From Pempheris klunzingeri (lineage: Eukaryota; Chordata; Actinopteri; Acropomatiformes; Pempheridae): a stretch of DNA of 64,000 nt. Location: positions 7,074,501 to 7,138,500 of the forward strand of contig NC_092020.1 of assembly GCF_042242105.1 (NCBI RefSeq), in the 5' to 3' direction. The position numbers and the translations under genes were made by a program. The number at the start of each line of letters is the position of its first letter. Positions within the stretch are counted from its first letter, which is position 1. The notes below the pieces were generated by a model that was given only the letters and a program-made list of their open reading frames with translations, made no database searches and was not told the DNA's origin. Positions 17,501-56,768 of this stretch are shown here, piece after piece.

Positions 17501-20500
17501 ACGTCACTCACGTCTGAATGAACTGAATTTAAAGCTTCCGTTTGTGACCAGATGACAGCTGTCCGCTCTTTCCATTGGGAACATGAGGTGTTCGTCCTGC
17601 AGCAGGAACAGGTTCAGTTTGAGAGAGAGAGAGACGCATCTTCTTTTGTAGACAGCAGCTCTTCCCTGTTCATTCAGAATCCATTTCTCATCACAGATGT
17701 CAAGGGGGATCTCAACAGCACAGAGCACTTCAAGCAGGCAAATGGCGGGCCTCTCCAGATGCAACTGGTCGATCTCCAAGCAGATGTGGCCCTGGATGAG
17801 CATTTTGGACAAACTGACCATAGTACTTTCTGGCTCCAAATGGTCTCGGAGACAGCTTGCCCAGGTCTCAGGAAAGTAGCCTGATGATTCCTGCCAATGT
17901 CCAGCTCCACATACAGCTGTGAGGCAGCTTTCTACATTATTAAAAACATATCATTCCAGGCTAACCAAACAAACAGAAACAAGCTACACTTAATTTACAT
18001 TTTTTAAGAAGTTCTGTTTTTTTTTTGTTTTTGTTTTTTATACGCTGCATTTATTCTACTTGACATAAGATACAGTGTTTCCCCTACCATTATATAAGGG
18101 GGGGCACCCCGCCCTGCCCCGGAGTAGCTCTCCTGCTCCGGGTCCAAGTACAGAAAACAGCCCAAGTGCTGCACACAACATATTGTGTTAACTTATATGC
18201 ATCACAGAGGTTTTGTGAGGCGACTGAAATTCTCCAATTCAGGCACAGAGGCTCTCAGGCTCACCAATTTAAACCCCCCCTTCACACAGAAATAACACCA
18301 CAGCATTCAGAAACATGCGATTAAGTGACATTATTCCAACCTTAAGTGTCACATTAATTTGTATTATAAAAAAAACAAAAGAATGAAATCAGGAGCATAT
18401 TTGCTAGTCGGTCAGTCTTGGAAGTGACGGTCAGTGAAAGAGCTGTGTGGCTGGTCAGATAGAGCCATCATAAGCTGTGATTTCGCCTATTTATTTTCCC
18501 CTTTCTTCCTCCACAAGCAAAAGACCACAGGTTGACAATGCCAGCATGAAGCAAAGCTACAACATTTTAATCCCTCTACTTAGGCAGATCCACGCCATCA
18601 TGAAAATGGTAGGCTCGTTGTTTTACAAATTATTAATAGACAACTAACCAGGTCAGCCCTAAACAATTTTAAACGAACTGTGAGACCTGCGGCGATATCT
18701 TAATATCACTAAATTGCAGTGTGATGGTGTTTGTTGCAGAGTGGTTGTGGAACTGTCAGTGAACTAACCTCCTCCACCCGAGCCTGCCTCTCCCTCTCAT
18801 ACTGCCTCCTCAGTAGCGCGTTCTCATTCTCTTCTGCTTCTTTCTTCTTTCTCTCAGCTTCCATCTTCCTCTGTTCGGCAAGCTGAATCAGCTCTTCATT
18901 CTTGGTCTTTTGCTGAGAGACAGAGAGGAAAGACAAACGGGTGGATACAGGCGGTCATAAGACAGGAGGATGGAGGCAGTCATTTCCAACTTCTTCCCAG
19001 ATGTAATGAAATGTAAATGTTACCACATCTCCTGTAGTCTAGTATTTTCAAATGATTAACATTTTATTTGATCCTTTAAACACTAATGAAAACCCTGCCT
19101 ATGGCTTAGTATTTTTAGCTCCTCACTTCCATCTCCTTCCGTTTCTTCCTGTCTTGTTCTTCCTGGTACTCCCTTTGGATGTGAGCCCTCTGCTCCGCCA
19201 GCCTCCTCTCCTCCTTTTCCTCTTCCAGTCTTGTCCGCTCTCTCTCCTCCGCCTTTTTACGCATCTTCTCCTCAATCTGCGGAAAAAACCCCATTAACTT
19301 CACCAAAAAATCCGAACAACTCTTATTTGAGGGCTGCAGCAAATTTCTAGCAAGGCACAGAACAAACCTTGAGTTCATAAACAACTTGTACATTTCTCTT
19401 CAATGGAATGTGGACTGCAGAAGTGATCGAGACAAAACAGCCGACGATAAAAAACACTGTAAAAAAACAAAACAAAGTAAAGCGGTACCTGTTGTTTGAG
19501 GTAAGCTTTGTACTTGTCCTGCTCCTGGAGCTGTTGTTGGGTGGGCTGGTTGGCAAACACATTGCCTCTGCCAAACTGGGGGGATTGAACATGGGTGAAA
19601 CCTATAGAAGACAAATGAATAAACACTGTTGCCAGTTGGACCAAAGAAACCTTCCTTTCTAAATATATGTTCCTCCAAGTCTAGAAGTAATCCCACTGAG
19701 CAGTAGCCAAGGCTCTGACTATTTCAGGAGATGTAGCACAGAGCTTTGCTGCCGTGCCGTCATGGCGATGTTAATTTCTCAGTTGAGAAGCAAATATTAC
19801 CCTTTCGTCTGTACTCAATGAACTCTAGATATTCGTGGATTCTTGGTGTTCTGATGTGATGCTGAACATGTTATGAAGGCAAAAAGCTGATTAATACATT
19901 GAAAGGACAGATGGTCACTGTACCAGAGAGCCTGTCACTAGTGTCATGGATACTGCGCTCTGCTACAGTACCAGAGACCCTCTCGTTGGGGTCAGGGGGC
20001 TCAGGCTGGCGGGCCGTCATGGTGGCCGTGGCTCTCCTCTGCCACTGCTCTGGGTTGCTATAAGCCTCCTCATTCAGCTTGTGCATCTGGTTGAGGTCAG
20101 CTGGGCAACAGGGAGAGACATTTAGAAGAAGTCTTTTGAATATTAACGGTGTATTGTGTTAAAATAATAAATAAATAAGTACTACAGCCTGGGACCTACC
20201 AATGAGATTTCCAGTGCTGTCCCTGAGTGGGGCTCCTCCTCCCCCTCGACCCCAGGGCTGGTGGTTCCTCATGTCAGCCTCCAGCTGGGCCTCATAACGC
20301 TCCATCTCCACCCTCTCCAGGCACCTCCGTTCCTGTTGCTCCTGGATCTACAGTAAAGTAGTTTCTAGGTTGCATCAAAATCCTCAGATGACATCCGTTA
20401 TTCTCTAACCACTAACAAGTATTCATCAGCCACTTCTTCTTCACGAGATCCTCTCAATGCTTTATACAAGTACAGTTCTCTCTGGCTGACCCAGTGATGC

Positions 20501-23500
20501 ACCCAGTGAGCCTTTGTGATCAAAATATATATTTGTGTCTTAGTGCACCAAACAGATTTAATCAGATGCCTATTGTGTAAAGCCAAAAACAAAACAAAAA
20601 CTCCAGCCAACAGTCAGAACTACTCAAACATAAAGATGTGATACATTTCAGTAATATGATGTAATCATGAATTCAGATTTAATGAGCAAGAAGTTCACGC
20701 TTTAGTTCAACTGAACACCACAATTCCTCAATATGGACCAGGAATTGGTACCCAATGTTAAGTTAGACGGCATGTGTATAGATATAATCAGTGATAACAC
20801 TCTGAAGTGTCCCAATATTAGGACAAATGGTACTTTGAACAGTGACAAACAACCAAAGTACATCAGTGATGGGCCACCAGGTGAAGCTTTGTGTGAATCT
20901 GCAGACATCAAGTGGCTAAAAAAAGGAAGCTATTGGGAGAAGCGGAGCAGCTTTAGTATCGTAGAGCGACTAGAGGAGAAAGATGAAGGACTGCGGAGGG
21001 ACTGAGGTGGCACAGGGATATGGAACACCTAAACAAGGGAGGAGCTCACATACACTTCTACTGCCAGCTCTATCTACAACTTCATTAGGGTCAAAGGGCT
21101 TAACTTAACTTACTTAACATTATATCTTTAAGTCTTAACTTGATCACTTTTACCTTGTTGCAAAGCTCGCTGTTCCCTCTCCTGGAAGCTTCCTGCCAAC
21201 ATATTGCAAACCAGGATGCAGTCAAGGGTAAAAGTTACCTTTATTTCGTGCTCCCTACTAATGTTGTTTTTCCAACCACACAGGACCTGAGCCAGGGTGC
21301 TATTGTTCATACCCAGCCATCAGCGTGTGTTGATAGTAATTACGGTAATAATGGGTAAAAGGTGTACAACAACATAAATGGACGAATCCTTTGACTTCTC
21401 AACATCTTTAACTATCCAAAAACCTTTTCTGTGCTTCCATCTGAAATCCCAGTCTGCTAATAACTGTTTGTGTTAAGATCTAATGACTATTATAATAACA
21501 TGTAGTAAATGGGTGAAATTAGTGCTTTTATTAGAATGATTCCAAACACTAGAGCTCCTTGTTCTTTAGGAGAAGACGGCCCTTTTAAATGCAGAGTCAG
21601 TCAATTTCACCTACCTGTTGTTTTAAAGCCTCCCTGTAGCTCGTAATCCTCTCCCTGGTAGATCTGGATTTGTCTGATGGGAAAAGCCTGACTTGTGAGT
21701 CCACAGTAACAACCTGACCGCCGGGCCTGCCAGAAGAGTTGCAGAATGACACCGTTACTGTGTCTTATTATAGCTCACTAAAGTGGCATTCAATTTTACT
21801 AATCACAAGTAATTCCATTACAGCCACTAATCAATTCTTTCCTTTCGTGCTACATTAAAGTTCAGAACACAAGCAGATGCTAATGCCGTGTCCATGCTGT
21901 TAAGTTAGACATTCTAAGGCAGTTTACAGGAGGTTACACCATTGTTTTATCATTTTGCCCATAAGGGAGATTAATTCACTGCCACTTTGATGCTGGCTGC
22001 TAAAAGCCAAAGCAGTAAAAGTGAAGAGGGAATATTTACTGTGTTGGAGGCTCGGGAAAGCTGCTTCCACTGTGCTGGCTGTGGGGGCTGTGGTTACCAA
22101 ACTGACTGGTCACAGCTCCCCCGGGTGGTACGTTCCAGTAGGACATGGGAAGGCCGGCACCAGGAACGGACAAATGACCGTCTGGATAAAAAAACAAATG
22201 TAACCACATTAAAATTAAGACGATAATGCTTAATGTAGTCAGTTTGACGTAGACAAAGAAGTTGTTTAATTCCCATTAAACAGAGACCAATACTTACAGT
22301 AGGCCATGTTTGGGTCGAGCAGGTTTCTGTTGCTGTAGTAGTGATGGGGCTCTCCATACGGGCTCCTGTAGGCTTCATTGACAGTTGGAGGAGGATGAGG
22401 AGGGAAAGGGATTCTGGAGAAACAATAAAACACTGTCTCACTTGTAGATTCAAGACTTTCTGCAGGTCTTACTTTTTTGGCTGTATCTGAAGATTTAGGT
22501 GTTCAATATTATGCGTTATGATAAGAGCCAGTTAGTTTGGCTGACTTTCTTACAATAATAAAAAATTACATCATATCAAATGACTTGCCAGCAACTTGGC
22601 AAAAACAGCCTGTGACCACAGAGTTTAAATTTATAATACTAGAGATTCTCATTAAGCACCGTTTTAAGTGTATTTCAGTGTTAGTGGCAGGGTCCGCCAT
22701 TTCCCGTCCTGGAGATCCACAGTATTTAATGCATGCATGCAATCCATTATAACCATGTCTATTTTTATCTCATTGATAAACATCAGCGTTATGTACTCAC
22801 TCTCCCACAGTTACATCAGAGCTGTTACTGCTAAAACAAACATACATTTCCTGATGCTTCACATTAAAACTGCTAAAGGGGCAAAACACATAACTGCTTG
22901 CAGTGTATGCAGCAAAAAGTCAAAACAGACCTCTTTATCGGAACTATGAAAGTTTGTTTGGCTGCACTGTAAACAGACACACCAAATGCTCTCCTGTGGT
23001 ATTTCTGATTAAATGAGGGTTTATGAAGCATTTAACTGCACTTGCTGGTTACCATAGTGACCATGTATGTTGCAAAATTAACCAGGACTGAAATCTTGAG
23101 GATTATAATTTATGTGAGGTTTAAGGTCAGTACCTTGGCGTGTCCATGGCTCTGGGGAACGGGGGGGCAGCAGGCTGGCTGTTTGGAGACAGACCACCCA
23201 GGCCAGAGCTGTACTCCAGCAGAGGGGACTGGAAGGCTACGTGGGGCTGCTCAGGAGGAGGCGTCTCTCTGGGTCTAACACCAATCTTCTCATTATTAGG
23301 TCCACTTCTGAATGGTGTTTCGCTGTCTCCTGTTGCTAAAGACTCCAAAACCTGATGATCCTTCCTCCTGCTCAGTCCAAACTGTCTGATTCGGTCCGGC
23401 TGGTTTGTGGATAGCGACAAAATTGAAAGACAAAGAAATGGGCTGCATACAGCATATACTGAAAAACCCTTTCACATCTTCCCTTAATACATTTCATAGT

Positions 23501-26500
23501 TCTGTTTTATTCATCATTCTATTCTTTTGGTTAAGGATTTTATAGTTACATTATCAGGGCACTGACTAGGACTATACTTGTACTGTGTTGGCTGAGACAC
23601 AAACATCACTGACAGATTATGTTCTACAAACGTGGCTGGAAGGTACAATATTCAAAGTGCTCAGTGAATTTGACCTTAAAAATAACCAACAATAATTTTT
23701 AATCTCAACTAAATGAATATAGTGAGATGCCAGCTGACCGGTTTCTCAGGATCATTTGCCCCCGTCGCAGCAACTCTCAGCTCCAGATCTTTCTCCCTGC
23801 AACAGGGGCACACAAGTAGAGTTAAACACACTGAGCATTTAATGACACTCATCCACAGGGATGTTCACTAAGTAAACAAGTACAGGTTCAGGGTTTTGCT
23901 CATTAACACTTAAAGAAGACACAACACCCTTGACAGACACATTAAGTGCTGCCAGAACGGTAACTGTCCATATAATATAACGGGAAAGATAATTGTTTGT
24001 AGTACTAGAAAGTAGTATTTTATCTACTGTTGTTGCAACTGAAAGTCTCTGTCTGAATAATATGAGTCCAAAACATTAATATCATCAGTGTTACATGGTA
24101 CATGGGAAGACAAGGATGACTGACTGTACCTCTTCTTGTTTCTGTGCTGCTCAGCTATCTGCTCCTGCAGCTCCTGCCTGTAGCGCTCCTTCCTCCTCTG
24201 TAAGGCATCTTCTGTATCGGCTGCTCCTGAAAAGATGGGACACCAATTAAAAACTTTTGTAGTCGCTTAGTTTTCTGAACTTGTCACGCTGAAAAGGCTC
24301 CATCCTTTAAGAAGTAACACTACAGGGTCAAATCAATGTCGTGCAGTCATTTCTTGTAGGAGTTCGTTAAATACTGGACCTTTGATTTTTAAAAACAAAC
24401 TGTTCAGTTGCAGCTGGAAAATGTCCTCTAACCTATTATAAGGCCAGTGGCAAACTCAGCATCCTCATTTTTGGTCAGTGCTCTTGATCTCCAGCCTTCT
24501 CTGGCAACATCTACTAGATCCTCCCTCTTCTCTCTGGGAAAAGCCAAATAAAAACAGATTGAAAGAAAAGAATAAATAAGGACAAACAACAAAAGTTGCC
24601 TATTTCACACATAAAGAAAGCAAAAACGACAATATTCTCTCTGTACCTGCCATCAGTCTTATTGAATCGTCTCCTCTCATAACTGGCGTCCACCCCGGTA
24701 TGCCTGTGCCCTCTGCCCTCCAGCTGCTCCAGCTCCTCCTTGAAGTGCTCCTCCTCCTCCTCCGACTCCTGGTCCACTGGCTTTCCCAGCCTGCCACGAT
24801 ACTTGAAAAGTACAGAGGACTGCTCCTCATCGTCCTTAGGGTAGAAGGCCTCAGCATCGGTGACACGGAAAGCCCTGTGCAACTCCCTAGTGTCCTCTGT
24901 TAGAGTGGCTGCATCCCTCCGTGAGGGGGGTCGCTGTTTAGGGAGAAGACCTCCCTGGTCTCCAGACTGGCGTAGCTAAAGGAAACCAGATTGTAAAGTT
25001 TGTTTGTATATATTTTGCTTCACAAATAGGCCATTTGGATCCTCTCTTTATCCAGAGAGAGTGAATGAAAAAGTTAGCACTACGTTTCTGTGTTACTTAT
25101 TCCTTTCCAGGTAGTCTGCTCTTGGCAGCCACCCAGCACTATGGAGGAGGATCAGTTATTTTCTTTCATTAAAAAGGTGGCTAGTAAAACAGTGTAGTAT
25201 CATAATCCAATGTGATGTGCCAGAGTCTGCTTTTTGTGCAAACATAATTTCCTGCCCAGACATCATTTTCAAATCCATTGACACAATTAATACATTAAAT
25301 AGAGACACTTACCTTGACATACCTCCTGTTATCCAGGTGAATTAATGGTCCCGGCTCTGCAGGGTCAAAGTGTTTTTTCTGTAACATAAAATGTTACTAT
25401 CATGATTCCAACATTGTGACTTTCCCTCTTCCTACAACACAGGTTGAACAGTAAAACCTGAAGCTGAAATGAGCAAACAGCAGGGCCCCAAAACAAAGAC
25501 TCCTTAAATGTACCCATCTCTATGATTTTAGTGTAAGAACTCTGTATACAGTGCAATTTGGGATATTTAACTGAAACCCTTTTAGTAAACCAGATTAACT
25601 TTATCTACTGTATTTTTTGATAACATTTTGTCATTAACAACAACAACACAAAGCACTGGGATTTACGTTGGGTTTCCAGATCAAATACATCATGCAGCAG
25701 CTTCTTCATTATTGACACCCACGTGAAGTCAATTGCCTGATAAACACAACTTGGTCATATGATCTCTCCAGGCTGCACATGTTGCTGAGGATACCTGAAC
25801 ATTATATAGATCATGGGATGCTAAGAGCTGCTATGGATACACCAATTGTGCCCTAAAATACTGACAAAAGGCTGCTGCGTTTAAAGACCACATTTGGAGG
25901 GATCCTTGAAAGGGGTCCAGCACTGTTAGCCAGATACAATACAGTATATTCCAAACAGAAATGCTGGCTTTAAAAAGGATCCAGCCCTGTAGTACAGCTT
26001 TTGTCTGCGTGTCAGTAATAGACTGGCAAAGACCACACACACACACGCGGCTCTGAGGAAGTCACAGTTGAGCTTCGAGCTTGACTGTTAGAGCCAAACA
26101 CATGAGTAAAGTGTGGGACATTCACCTGAGCCATGTAGCGCCTGTAGTCCATACGGAGCTCATGCTGCAGCCGCTGTTTCTTCCTCTCATACTCCACACC
26201 GAGGGGTAGACCCACGCTGCAACTCTCCTCTGACAAAACACACCCATGCATTTTTAATGAGAACACGAGGTGAAGAGTTTAATGCCAAAGCAAGACTTTA
26301 AAGACACGCCCTGCCCTGGCAAACATTGCAAATGACAAAAAGGGCAAATTATGAGATGCCATCATCTAAATAAAAACCATATGAATTGAAGGAGAGAAAT
26401 GTGGTCATGTACTACACCTTTTCCCTGTGCAATAGACTTGGGGGGGATGTTCTCCTTTACTGTGGACTCATAGGCTCTGTGGGATTTTGCCTGTCACAAA

Positions 26501-29339: not shown

Positions 29340-41584
<12,245 letters not shown>

Positions 41585-42241
41585 GCTGCGACCCCACCAT
41601 CCATATATGTGTCACTGCGAGTTAGGCTGAAAAGTTGGTCCGCTAGTCTATGCGCCGAGTCAGAGAGGCAGGTATACTGTTTACACTCGTGTATACCCTC
41701 GACTACAACACTGTCTCCAAGACGAGGCATCCCCGCTCTGACATCTCCTCACCGACCCACACCGCTATGTTCTCCACGCTCCTAGCATCGGCCCCCCCGG
41801 CGGCCACAGGCACGGAGCCCGGTCGGTCTAGTCATCCACAGCACGGTACTCCAGACAACAGGGCAGGGAACCGGGACGGTCTTGGAACGAGGGACAGGAG
41901 CTGCCAGTCGCCCAAAGAGCTGACGGAGAGAGGCCCGAGGTAATGGGATGGATGTAGCAACATCCACCGTCACCTTGGAGACAAATAGGTGGAGGGATAG
42001 CTTAGTGACTGTTGCTAACCAACTGGGCTAGCAGGAAGCTAAACTACAAAGCTAACATAAGTTACTGTTACTTGCTTAAAAGACTAAAAACTACATAAAA
42101 TATAGTTAAGTGCCCGCAAATAGTCTCGAACTACTGTACGGTTTCGCCACTAAACCAACTGCAACAACGACAGCTAGCTAACTAGCTTGTCTGCTAAGTA
42201 ACGTTAACCAATTCAACATCAGCTAATGTTAGCTTACTTAC

Positions 42242-43775: not shown

Positions 43776-46819
<3,044 letters not shown>

Positions 46820-46849: not shown

Positions 46850-48240
46850 AATATCTGAAGTCAGAGGAGGAGACTTCTGCTTCTTCTGAGTTTAGTCAAT
46901 TCTGAATGTTAGATCCCTAAAATGTTCCCCACAGCTGGACCCAAAGAAACGTGTGTCCAAGGAGAAACTGATGAAATACCTGATTCTCTCCAGTCATAAA
47001 ACATTCAAAATATGCAGGGAGTGTCTAGAACGAATGTACACTCGGCAAAAGTAGCCACACTTTCGGGAAAAGCTCTTTTTTGTCTTGTGTAATAGATTAA
47101 TCATGGAGAAAAAAAGAGTAGAGAATAGAACTTTGGCATTATTATATCAACAGAAGGAAATGTGAATAACTATAACCATATTATTCCACAAACATATGCA
47201 GCTGATTAGAGGAGACAGTGCTCCTTCATCATCCCCAAATCTCTCTCCCATAGTGTGCGATCTGCAATCTGTCCGCTGTTTTCCTCATCGCTCTTCTCTC
47301 CTCTCTGCTTGCCAGCTCTTTGATTTTCCCATTCTTTCATGGCCACTTATCCAGCCAGCGTTCTCTGTGAGTGTCATTAAAAAGGCTGGAGTACTCATTT
47401 GGCTGATGAGCGGTGTTGTGCCATTTCAAAGAAATGTTCCGAGCAGCTAAATGCCGCTGAAGGTCGGCTGTGAACAACGCAGGAAGAGGCAGAGCAGACG
47501 GAGACATTTTATCTCAAAGGAGCCTGAGTGAACAATGTGGCTGCTGCTGATTTCAAATGATTGATGATGACGTGTGACGGGTGTCAAGACATAATCACAC
47601 ACAGGAGCAGATTTCAAACCATGTCTAGCCATTCAACAGAATAACACACTCATATTGTTTCAGTATGCCAGGATAAAGACAATATCCTGTCACACATATT
47701 ACATAAATAGTGCACAAATTTAGTAGATTGTGTATATGTAGAGCTCACATTCAGATCCTGGCCGTATTAATGAAAAACAAACAAAATCATTTCAAGTCAA
47801 TTCATTTTTATTAGCCATAAATGCCTAAAGCTGATATTTCCATCTGCCTTCAATGGCCACCGTGTGGGGGGGAACCAGTTTCTACACAGTCCAAACAGAT
47901 CGGACATGATGAGGCAAAGCTGTGGTCATTTAACCCCTGATGCTCTGCTTCGAGATTGGCTCCAAATTCTTTATTCCAACTCCAAATGCCAACAAAGTTC
48001 AAGGGGAACATGTAGAAATATGTGGAAAAACAAGAATGTTCTATGTGGGCTATAAATAATTAAAGTATGTCTATTCTCACGTTGCCAGTTAGGAACAACC
48101 ATGACACAATAATACAGTCAGTGCTCAGACATCGCTGTGTCCACAGTGTACAGTTCTACCCAGTCATTAGTACGACTGGTCAGAGATCAGACTGCTCCGC
48201 ATCCTCTGGTGTGCTGGTGGTGCTTTCCTCCCATAAGACC
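46850..48240. other. fgl1 to calnexin-like gene intergenic region
   Basis: No supported exon. It contains the presumed fgl1 promoter and the calnexin-like 3' UTR; AATAAA signals on the minus strand lie near 47970 and 47807. Confidence 0.5.
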
Positions 48241-48250
48241 GCTGCACTCG

Positions 48251-48259
48251 TCAGTGATC

Positions 48260-48299
<40 letters not shown>

Positions 48300-50348
48300 A
48301 CGTTTTGTTACCCACAGTTTCGAGGACCTCCTCAGGGGCACTATGACAAGAATGGCCTGCGTAAAATTGCAATAATGTGGGGTTATCTGTCCTTGATACT
48401 CAAAAAATCCTTTCAAAGAGTTGTGAAACTGTCATAAAAGGGCTGTGCGGTTCAGAAAAATTCAATATGCCAATCTGGCAAAGTAATAAAATGGTTAAGG
48501 CCTCGGACAGAATATCTAGAAATTTAAAGGGATTATAATTAGCCAAACAATTTCTCTACCCAAATAGAGCAACTGTAAGATAATGTATGACCTCTTTTGG
48601 TTGGAGCTGAACTGCACCTGGATTCTGCTGTTTTTAAGCGCAGCGCTAGAACATTCCTCCAAATGTTGTCTTGGGTTATTTCTAAAATGAGCCGCTCCTC
48701 TCTAAACCCACTCACTTCAGTCGTCCATACTGCGTATTGTGGAGTATATTATGATCAGAGGCCATCACACAAATTCAATTTCACTGGATGGATATATAAT
48801 AATATCACATTATCAGTCATTTTCAGCTCTGCATTGTCTGTCGACTCTCACCTTCAGGTCTAAGTCAGACTTCCTCTGGTTACCATGAGGGTCTCTCCTC
48901 CTCGGTACTGCTCGGTCAGCCTTTCCTAAACACAGAAGAGGAGAGTGACCACTAATGATGATGTAGCACCTACTTCTAATGATCTAAGAAGAAAACGTTA
49001 CCTTTCATATCCACCGGTTCTGTCCGCTGTGAGGACTCTGGATCATCTGGTTGAGCATCATCAGACTTTTTATAGTAATACTGGTCATCAGGGGGACCGA
49101 ACCTCTACATGCAAACACACACACACACTTAAATTTGACCTCTTGTACCATCACTGCATTAATTTTCAAAAGAATCAAAGCACACTCATGCTACTTATAG
49201 TCCTAATGCAGGACAATAACACAAGCATACTCTACCATGTCAGGCCACATGAAGCTAATGAAGAGGATGATGGGGAGTCCAACGGTGAAGACATAGACGC
49301 CCCAGAGCCAGGGACGCTGCTGGGTGGCCAGTAGAAGGCTCTCTATCACACCCCGCTAGGATACACATTTGTTTGTATTGTTATACAATAAGATCTATAG
49401 TATGTCCAACCAGCCGTGCGTGAGCATACATAAAGGTCAACAAGCAAGAGATGGTATGAAGATCAGAACCACGGTGCACACTGCAACAACAAAATAATTA
49501 TGTGACAGAATAGAATATTTTGCATTTACACATCTCAGCACTAGGTGGTGTATGAGTATTGCTGGTGGAAGGAGTCTGATTATAACAGAAACAGGTGCTG
49601 CTGCTTAATGATGCATGCGGTCAGTGTCCGCAGTGGTGCTGCGGTGTGAGATGTGACCACATGCCAGACTGTGTAATGTGTGTGTGAATCATAGAGCAAT
49701 AATTTAGAAAGTTAGACTTTGACATTGTTTGCCTTTAAGGTGCAAATTGTACTAAGTGAATGGATTAGGGGTTCATCCGACCCATGAGCTACAGGAATCG
49801 GCTGGAATTAGCAAGCAAACCATTATTTATTTGTTTCAAGACCATTCAAAATAACATTTTTGGTCTATTGATAAATTCCAGAGCCATAAAGCTTTAAAAA
49901 AGGAACCATTAAAAAATATACAATTTTCTATATGTTTTTAAAAATATATTGTTATTATAATTTTATTTTGTTGTTATTATTATTATTATTATTTATCATT
50001 ATTTTCTCAAACAAGCAAATTACTTTTCTATAACATTTATATTGTATACTGTAACTATCTCATAAACATGATGTTTTTTACAATACTCTTGCCCAACGTC
50101 TATAAAGATTTTAATGATTCATTTTATAGACCTTGCATTGTTTGTTTATGTTTTATATGTGCTTGTATGTTGATGTATACCTGTGCTGACAACAATAAAG
50201 ATAAAAAGGAACAAGAAACAGTGAATCATTGACTTTGTTCATTCAGAATGAAAACTGCTGTAGCAGCAGGTCTTACCTGTGCTGCAGCAGACACTGGAGT
50301 CACATTGGCTACCAGCATCACACACAGCCACACAAAGCTTATCTCCAT
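48251..50348 (-). CDS. Calnexin/calmegin-like small ER membrane protein lacking the luminal domain
   Basis: Exons 50348-50277, 49355-49236, 49104-49002 and 48925-48852 have matching phases. Exon 1 is a signal peptide (MEISFVWLCVMLVANVTPVS) resembling that of calmegin. Exon 2 gives a calnexin-type membrane segment: GVIESLLLATQQ, RPWLWGVYVFTVGLPII, LFISFMWPDM. Exon 3 is an acidic tail (DDQYYYKKSDDAQPDD) like the YKKTDxxQPD of calnexin; exon 4 is basic (VPRRRDPHGNQRK). The C-terminus is either read-through to a stop at 48813-48815 (135 aa) or a splice to a short exon with stop at 48251-48253 (125 aa). Calnexin and calmegin are about 590-610 aa; the lectin and P domains have no room in the 920-base intron. 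It could be a functional short paralogue, a decaying gene or an assembly deletion. Confidence 0.6.
48259..48298. repeat. (CA)n microsatellite
   Basis: About 18 CA units. On the minus strand it is a TG run immediately before the candidate acceptor of the last calnexin-like exon. Confidence 0.9.

Positions 50349-51730: not shown

Positions 51731-56768
<5,038 letters not shown>

Follow-up and report, generated by a model that had tools for sequence, protein, structure and literature searches.

Can a gene of the calnexin/calmegin family persist when the luminal chaperone domains are gone and only signal peptide, membrane segment and cytosolic tail are left? This question is raised by a locus on contig NC_092020.1 of the fish Pempheris klunzingeri (assembly GCF_042242105.1). 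The stretch of 64,000 nucleotides that was analysed (contig positions 7,074,501 to 7,138,500, here called the window and numbered from its first letter) holds a gene of five minus-strand exons, spanning 50348-48180, with matching phases and good splice sites. A preliminary description had proposed that this gene, referred to here as the mini gene, arose by an internal loss of luminal exons. Overall, the best explanation is that a calmegin duplicate is still made as a type I mini-protein of the endoplasmic reticulum (ER) and would act via its calnexin-type membrane segment; we give this reading a probability of about 0.6.

GT/AG ends are present at every predicted splice junction, and neither a frameshift nor an internal stop interrupts the first four exons. 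Coding exon 1 (50277-50348, 72 nucleotides, MEISFVWLCVMLVANVTPVSAAAQ) has its ATG two bases past the acceptor TTTCAG and ends in phase 0 at the donor GTAAGA; its predicted product is a likely signal peptide of 24 residues, cut, as judged by eye, near VSA/AAQ. Intron 1 (49356-50276, 921 bases) occupies the place expected for calmegin exons 2-10. The join from 50277 to 49355, which is predicted, leads into the membrane exon (49236-49355, 120 nucleotides, phase 0 to 0, acceptor TATCCTAG, donor GTAGAG), the counterpart of calmegin exon 11 (RGVIESLLLATQQRPWLWGVYVFTVGLPIILFISFMWPDM). The tail is encoded by an exon at 49002-49104 (phase 0 to 1, calmegin exon 12 counterpart) with the motif YKKSDDAQPD, by an exon at 48852-48925 (phase 1 to 0, calmegin exon 13 counterpart by position and phase) with an alternative donor past 48884, and by the last exon at 48180-48259. 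All these features lie on the minus strand, and the positions, phases and first donor given in the preliminary description were confirmed. Its product of 125 to 135 residues can be refined to one of two forms: form A, with a stop at 48251 in the phase-0 frame, has 125 residues and ends in DLKDH; form B, which uses the donor past 48884 and the stop at 48180, has 138 residues and ends in EDAEQSDL, the end being acidic and rich in serine and threonine (EESTTSTPEDAEQSDL). Beyond the form B stop two AATAAA poly(A)-like signals follow on the same strand, one about 200 bases away (47970-47975) and one at 47812-47807.

The mini gene is almost certainly a truncated member of the calnexin/calmegin family, the third of this family in the genome. 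When the joined product of 125 residues was compared with the PDB, the sole match at E up to 10 was calnexin (8rjc_9, E 1.1e-11, residues 20-102), in a stretch that runs from the membrane segment into the first part of the tail. A Pfam search with the same protein yielded no family over the cut-off, the best being SieB with E 0.32. The best 25 matches in a tblastn search of the window with dog calnexin and human calmegin included the membrane exon, with E 1e-8 and 3e-7, and one of the tail exons (E 0.6). The family features retained at the locus are a signal-peptide exon that is entered just upstream of the ATG and left in phase 0, a membrane exon of phase 0 to 0 with the pattern PWLW..Y..T..P, and tail exons of phases 0 to 1, 1 to 0 and 0 with the YKK motif, where the tail phases were compared with the calmegin of the same genome only. 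Residues PWLW, Y, T, P and F of the membrane helix are invariant across five compared sequences and are kept in the mini-protein together with the YKK motif.

Exon 1 is also singular in its surroundings. Nowhere else on either strand of the window does an ATG lie behind an acceptor and open a hydrophobic frame that runs to a strong phase-0 donor, and block shuffling of the surrounding 2.6 kb gave such a frame in none of 300 copies; since the criteria were chosen once the exon was known, these results are supportive and not blind. The calnexin gene (canx) of the same genome begins its exon 1 with CAG|ACTATGGATCAG, or CTGCAG|ACT|ATGGATCAG in longer context, and the mini gene with CAG|ACATGGAG, a likeness seen at the acceptor and start, the part that was compared.

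For comparison within the genome the 646-Mb assembly (G000), in which the window lies on contig C9, was searched in six frames with the Pfam Calreticulin family (PF00262). This search scores the best candidates only and cannot reach stretches of N. The 25 exon matches that it returned (E 0.001 or lower) are shared among five other genes: one at C9:27.95 Mb, one at C3:25.42 Mb, two on C6 and one on C15. The gene on C3 (L010) is a full-length calmegin of 14 coding exons and 683 residues ending in RKRRVRKD. The gene at C9:27.95 Mb (L009) is calnexin, with a tail end matching RSPRNRKVRRD and a MAML gene nearby, while the genes on C6 and C15 look like calreticulins by their match pattern. In calmegin, exon 1 ends in phase 0, exon 11 (membrane) runs from phase 0 to 0 and exons 12-14 have phases 0 to 1, 1 to 0 and 0. 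The mini gene has counterparts of exons 1, 11, 12, 13 and 14 in the same order, with equal borders and phases, and shares the YKK tail motif. Its membrane exon is identical to that of calmegin at 18 of 38 residues, including PWLW, Y, T, GLPI, F and WP. Calmegin has several parts that are missing here: exons 2-10, which encode lectin and P domains, an acidic stretch near the N-terminus, the larger portion of the acidic tail, the terminal RKRRVRKD and a cysteine at the membrane end. Identity of the membrane segment with canx is likewise 18/38; both genes have an acceptor just ahead of the exon 1 start codon, and the tail motif YKK[TS]D..QPD is common to the mini gene, canx and dog 8rjc. The mini gene differs from these two calnexins in its short tail and in the absence of both a luminal domain and a CC palmitoylation site.

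Exactly exons 2-10 of calmegin are missing from the mini gene. They amount to 1227 nucleotides or 409 codons and form an in-frame cassette from phase 0 to phase 0, in agreement with the internal loss proposed earlier. The further claim that nothing between the two exons can encode a luminal part also held. Smith-Waterman alignment of intron 1 with the luminal parts of the paralogues from the same genome gave a best score of 39, compared with a shuffle mean of 35, and 6 of 40 shuffles were as good; the best luminal scores were 41 in the 1.6 kb upstream (3/40 shuffles as good) and 40 in the 1.3 kb downstream (13/40). As a positive control, a real calmegin exon scored 353. Among the best 25 tblastn matches in the window none to a luminal part had an E below 4, save a few residues just before the membrane segment; the other matches were to an acidic coiled-coil (best E 4e-4, 19.1-19.3 kb) or due to chance. 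No exon of the PF00262 lectin domain was reported at the locus among the scored candidates, and a P domain with its repeated proline-rich motifs was found neither by tblastn of the window nor by alignment of intron and flanks. The 25 Calreticulin matches included no orphan luminal exons elsewhere in the genome, and a genome search with the mini-protein revealed no second copy of the locus. Calnexin and calmegin chaperones are defined by their luminal domains, so that this name does not fit the mini gene. Exon 1 differs as well, with 24 codons compared to 92 in calmegin: the acidic stretch is lost and a strong donor follows right after the likely cleavage site. This remodelling speaks against a single recent deletion and equally against a drop-out in the assembly. 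A processed retrocopy or retropseudogene was ruled out, since introns are predicted at the parental positions.

Protein-level constraint was examined by codon position in 38 aligned codons of the membrane exon from the mini gene, calmegin and canx. Identities at positions 1, 2 and 3 were 20, 30 and 13 of 38 between mini gene and calmegin, 21, 29 and 19 between mini gene and canx, and 25, 33 and 17 between calmegin and canx. Among 2000 codon permutations, identities as high as for the pair of mini gene and calmegin were reached 2, 0 and 475 times at the three positions, and 0, 0 and 33 times for the pair with canx. Where the other two genes agree, the mini gene had changed at 9/25, 6/33 and 9/17 sites of positions 1, 2 and 3, calmegin at 5/21, 2/29 and 11/19, and canx at 4/20, 3/30 and 5/13. 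The excess of position 3 over positions 1 and 2 gave a one-sided Fisher p of 0.037 for the mini branch and 0.0005 for calmegin. This modest evidence suggests that the mini gene is under protein-level constraint, weaker than that on calmegin, and we consider the gene probably protein-coding and functional.

Concerning its origin, sequence and neighbourhood favour an old calmegin duplicate. In a tree of five sequences over the membrane region and tail start, which again includes human calmegin, a placement of the mini gene inside the canx clade was disfavoured by the approximately unbiased (AU) test (p 0.016-0.017) and the Kishino-Hasegawa (KH) test (p 0.049), with a borderline Shimodaira-Hasegawa (SH) value (p 0.051); an origin from canx is disfavoured to that extent. 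On the calmegin side three positions lie within 0.1 log-likelihood units. Two genes, both named by eye, link C3 with C9: scoc adjoins calmegin on C3 and is matched at 98% over 46 residues at 10.73 Mb of C9, and for acsl1, located about 76 kb away from the mini gene, the best match to a paralogue is on C3 (59%, 64 residues). A copy of calmegin from the teleost genome duplication, which has since moved, would be the best reading of these data, but is not proven by them.

If translated, the mini gene would give a type I ER membrane protein of 125-138 residues. After cleavage of the signal, about 15-20 residues would be left in the lumen, followed by one transmembrane helix and 60-75 cytosolic residues. 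Binding of glycans by a lectin domain would be impossible for such a protein. The calnexin-type helix (RPWLW..Y..T..LP) might instead meet membrane clients or the translocon within the bilayer, and the short YKK tail might provide a cytosolic contact. In this way intramembrane and tail functions would be kept apart from chaperoning. For calnexin it is stated, with reference to another paper, that residues of its membrane segment serve to recognise misfolded helices in the membrane (available part of PMC11513070). In Schizosaccharomyces pombe starved of inositol a construct of calnexin membrane segment plus tail restores the wild-type level of cell death in trans; a piece of this kind also arises by natural cleavage of calnexin (PMC2705804, as far as available). 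With these findings in view, we prefer an adaptor or co-factor that would work within the membrane and have no lectin activity. A mode of action through helix and YKK tail nevertheless remains tentative. Only slightly less tentative is the wider proposal that a fish lineage keeps a dedicated membrane-and-tail gene, whose product, separated from the lectin chaperone, would serve as co-factor or regulator within the membrane and would have been under selection since an ancient duplication.

Several observations weigh against the preferred reading of a still translated calmegin duplicate. The mini branch is long (1.24 compared with 0.34 for calmegin) and shows more changes at positions 1 and 2 (15/58 versus 7/50, p 0.098), so that constraint looks relaxed. 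The Fisher test for the mini branch is weak and covers 38 codons, and the constraint may partly be older than the loss of the luminal exons. Third positions shared with canx exceed most permutations (33/2000 as high), and saturation is therefore not uniform. The C-terminus is ambiguous between forms A and B. In calnexin and calmegin, a basic cluster at the end of the long acidic tail serves ER retention. The mini-protein has no such acidic tail with a basic C-terminal cluster: its tail comprises 61 or 74 residues with a charge of about -1 or -7, compared with 144 residues and -56 in calmegin. The tail also lacks cysteine, including the palmitoylation-type cysteine at the cytosolic end of the membrane segment (FCWPK in calmegin, FCCTGK in canx), and ER retention is uncertain given that cysteine, most of the acidic stretch and the basic end of the paralogues are missing. 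The client studied in PMC11513070 was, according to the available part, bound by calnexin via its glycan and not via the membrane helix. Finally, the CNG channel gene next to the mini gene has its best paralogue on C14 (75%), the copy on C3 being fourth among the paralogues; snx25 had no second copy in the genome for the one exon tested, and no match to a MAML gene was found near the mini gene. These three points leave the duplication history not secure.

The same relaxed constraint, together with the shortened tail and its ambiguous end, is what would be expected of a unitary pseudogene in slow decay, whose luminal exons were lost recently in the lineage, whose remainder is not yet broken and whose transcript, if any, would be a by-product. 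We regard this as the main rival, but as unlikely: the remodelled exon 1, ending right past the signal with a strong donor, speaks for more than one deletion, no luminal relic was found in intron or flanks, and neither frame nor splice site is broken in the first four exons while third positions are near permutation level compared with calmegin. The mini-protein might also be a dominant-negative decoy that occupies partners of calnexin and calmegin, such as the translocon, the calcium pump or trafficking factors, and thereby limits chaperone action. This is a variant of the preferred reading and does not exclude it; retention of just the membrane helix and YKK motif fits it, as does the action in trans of the fission-yeast piece (PMC2705804, available part), but most of the acidic tail is missing, and we judge it improbable. 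Competition for palmitoylation enzymes, which the preliminary description had included among such effects, fails, since in calnexin the modified residues are two cysteines located where the membrane segment ends (PMC4765739, available part) and the mini tail has no cysteine; this idea was ruled out.

Two further alternatives question the gene structure itself. The AT-rich, low-complexity sequence in intron 1 could point to a full-length gene whose luminal exons were dropped during assembly. A gap in the intron of about 920 bases had been named in the preliminary description as a possible refutation; the whole window contains no N. The borders of the flanking exons are re-made (24 codons versus 92 in exon 1), the assembly holds no orphan luminal exons among its Calreticulin matches and the search for a second copy of the locus was negative, all of which makes such an artefact highly improbable. 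Nearly as improbable is that the signal exon belongs to something else and that the true upstream exons of the membrane exon encode another luminal part. The join of 50277 to 49355 is indeed a prediction, but the upstream space is bounded by the CNG gene on the same strand, whose C-terminal domains lie within 52488-51958, no other candidate first exon in the window passed the criteria, and exon 1 resembles canx exon 1 at acceptor and start. 

The other genes noted in the window lie on the same strand as the mini gene. Directly upstream is the CNG channel gene (51958-55449; Ion_trans, cNMP_binding and CLZ matches) and directly downstream an fgl1-like gene with a fibrinogen domain and a signal-like start (43776-46819). 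An snx25-like gene, named by eye, follows at about 29400-41611 with PXA and RGS matches; a very long CA/TG repeat lies within it (37060-37350). The coiled-coil gene at about 18700-26300 is CSPP1-like by eye; a single further match to it, weak and interrupted by stops, lies on contig C21. As synteny markers, snx25, this CSPP1-like gene and the ELMO/ELMOD family were uninformative. A Tc1/mariner transposase-like stretch was seen by eye in the right flank (L034:1834-2797, minus strand). No relatives of the mini gene were confirmed in viral or bacterial/archaeal contigs, which is what one would expect of a gene from a fish.

The established role of calnexin is that of a sugar-binding chaperone, and the separate activities of its helix and tail are hard to tease apart by experiment. 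A natural gene with helix and tail only, if this is true, would be a ready-made test of the roles and sufficiency of these parts, and the mini-protein, if made, could reveal what the anchor of the chaperone does alone. Even a decaying copy would show that in-frame removal of an exon block can leave a readable type I membrane mini-protein. In the literature, no calnexin or calmegin gene without luminal domain was described among the matches listed (titles and starts of abstracts), and no paper was found under the names clgna, clgnb, calmegin-like or clgn-like. FREY1 (C11orf94), a small single-pass ER protein working via its membrane helix, offers an analogy only; it is of type II and is not known to be related in sequence to the mini-protein. 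A mention of FREY1 is found in PMC11513070. A stickleback study mentions calmegin in connection with copy-number variation (PMC4256280, available part). The statement that no protein like this had been described agrees with the literature search as far as a gene is concerned, but has to be qualified for fission yeast, where the available part of PMC2705804 describes membrane-plus-tail calnexin both as an engineered construct (C-termTM_Cnx1p) and as a natural fragment. Like the mini-protein, these consist of membrane segment and cytosolic tail, and they act without the luminal chaperone domain. With tunicamycin, the effect of these parts on cell death was reversed relative to inositol starvation (PMC2705804). 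In fission yeast the piece comes from a construct or from proteolytic cleavage of the full-length protein, whereas the mini gene is a separate gene; what is new here is a gene-encoded membrane-and-tail remnant of the calnexin/calmegin family.
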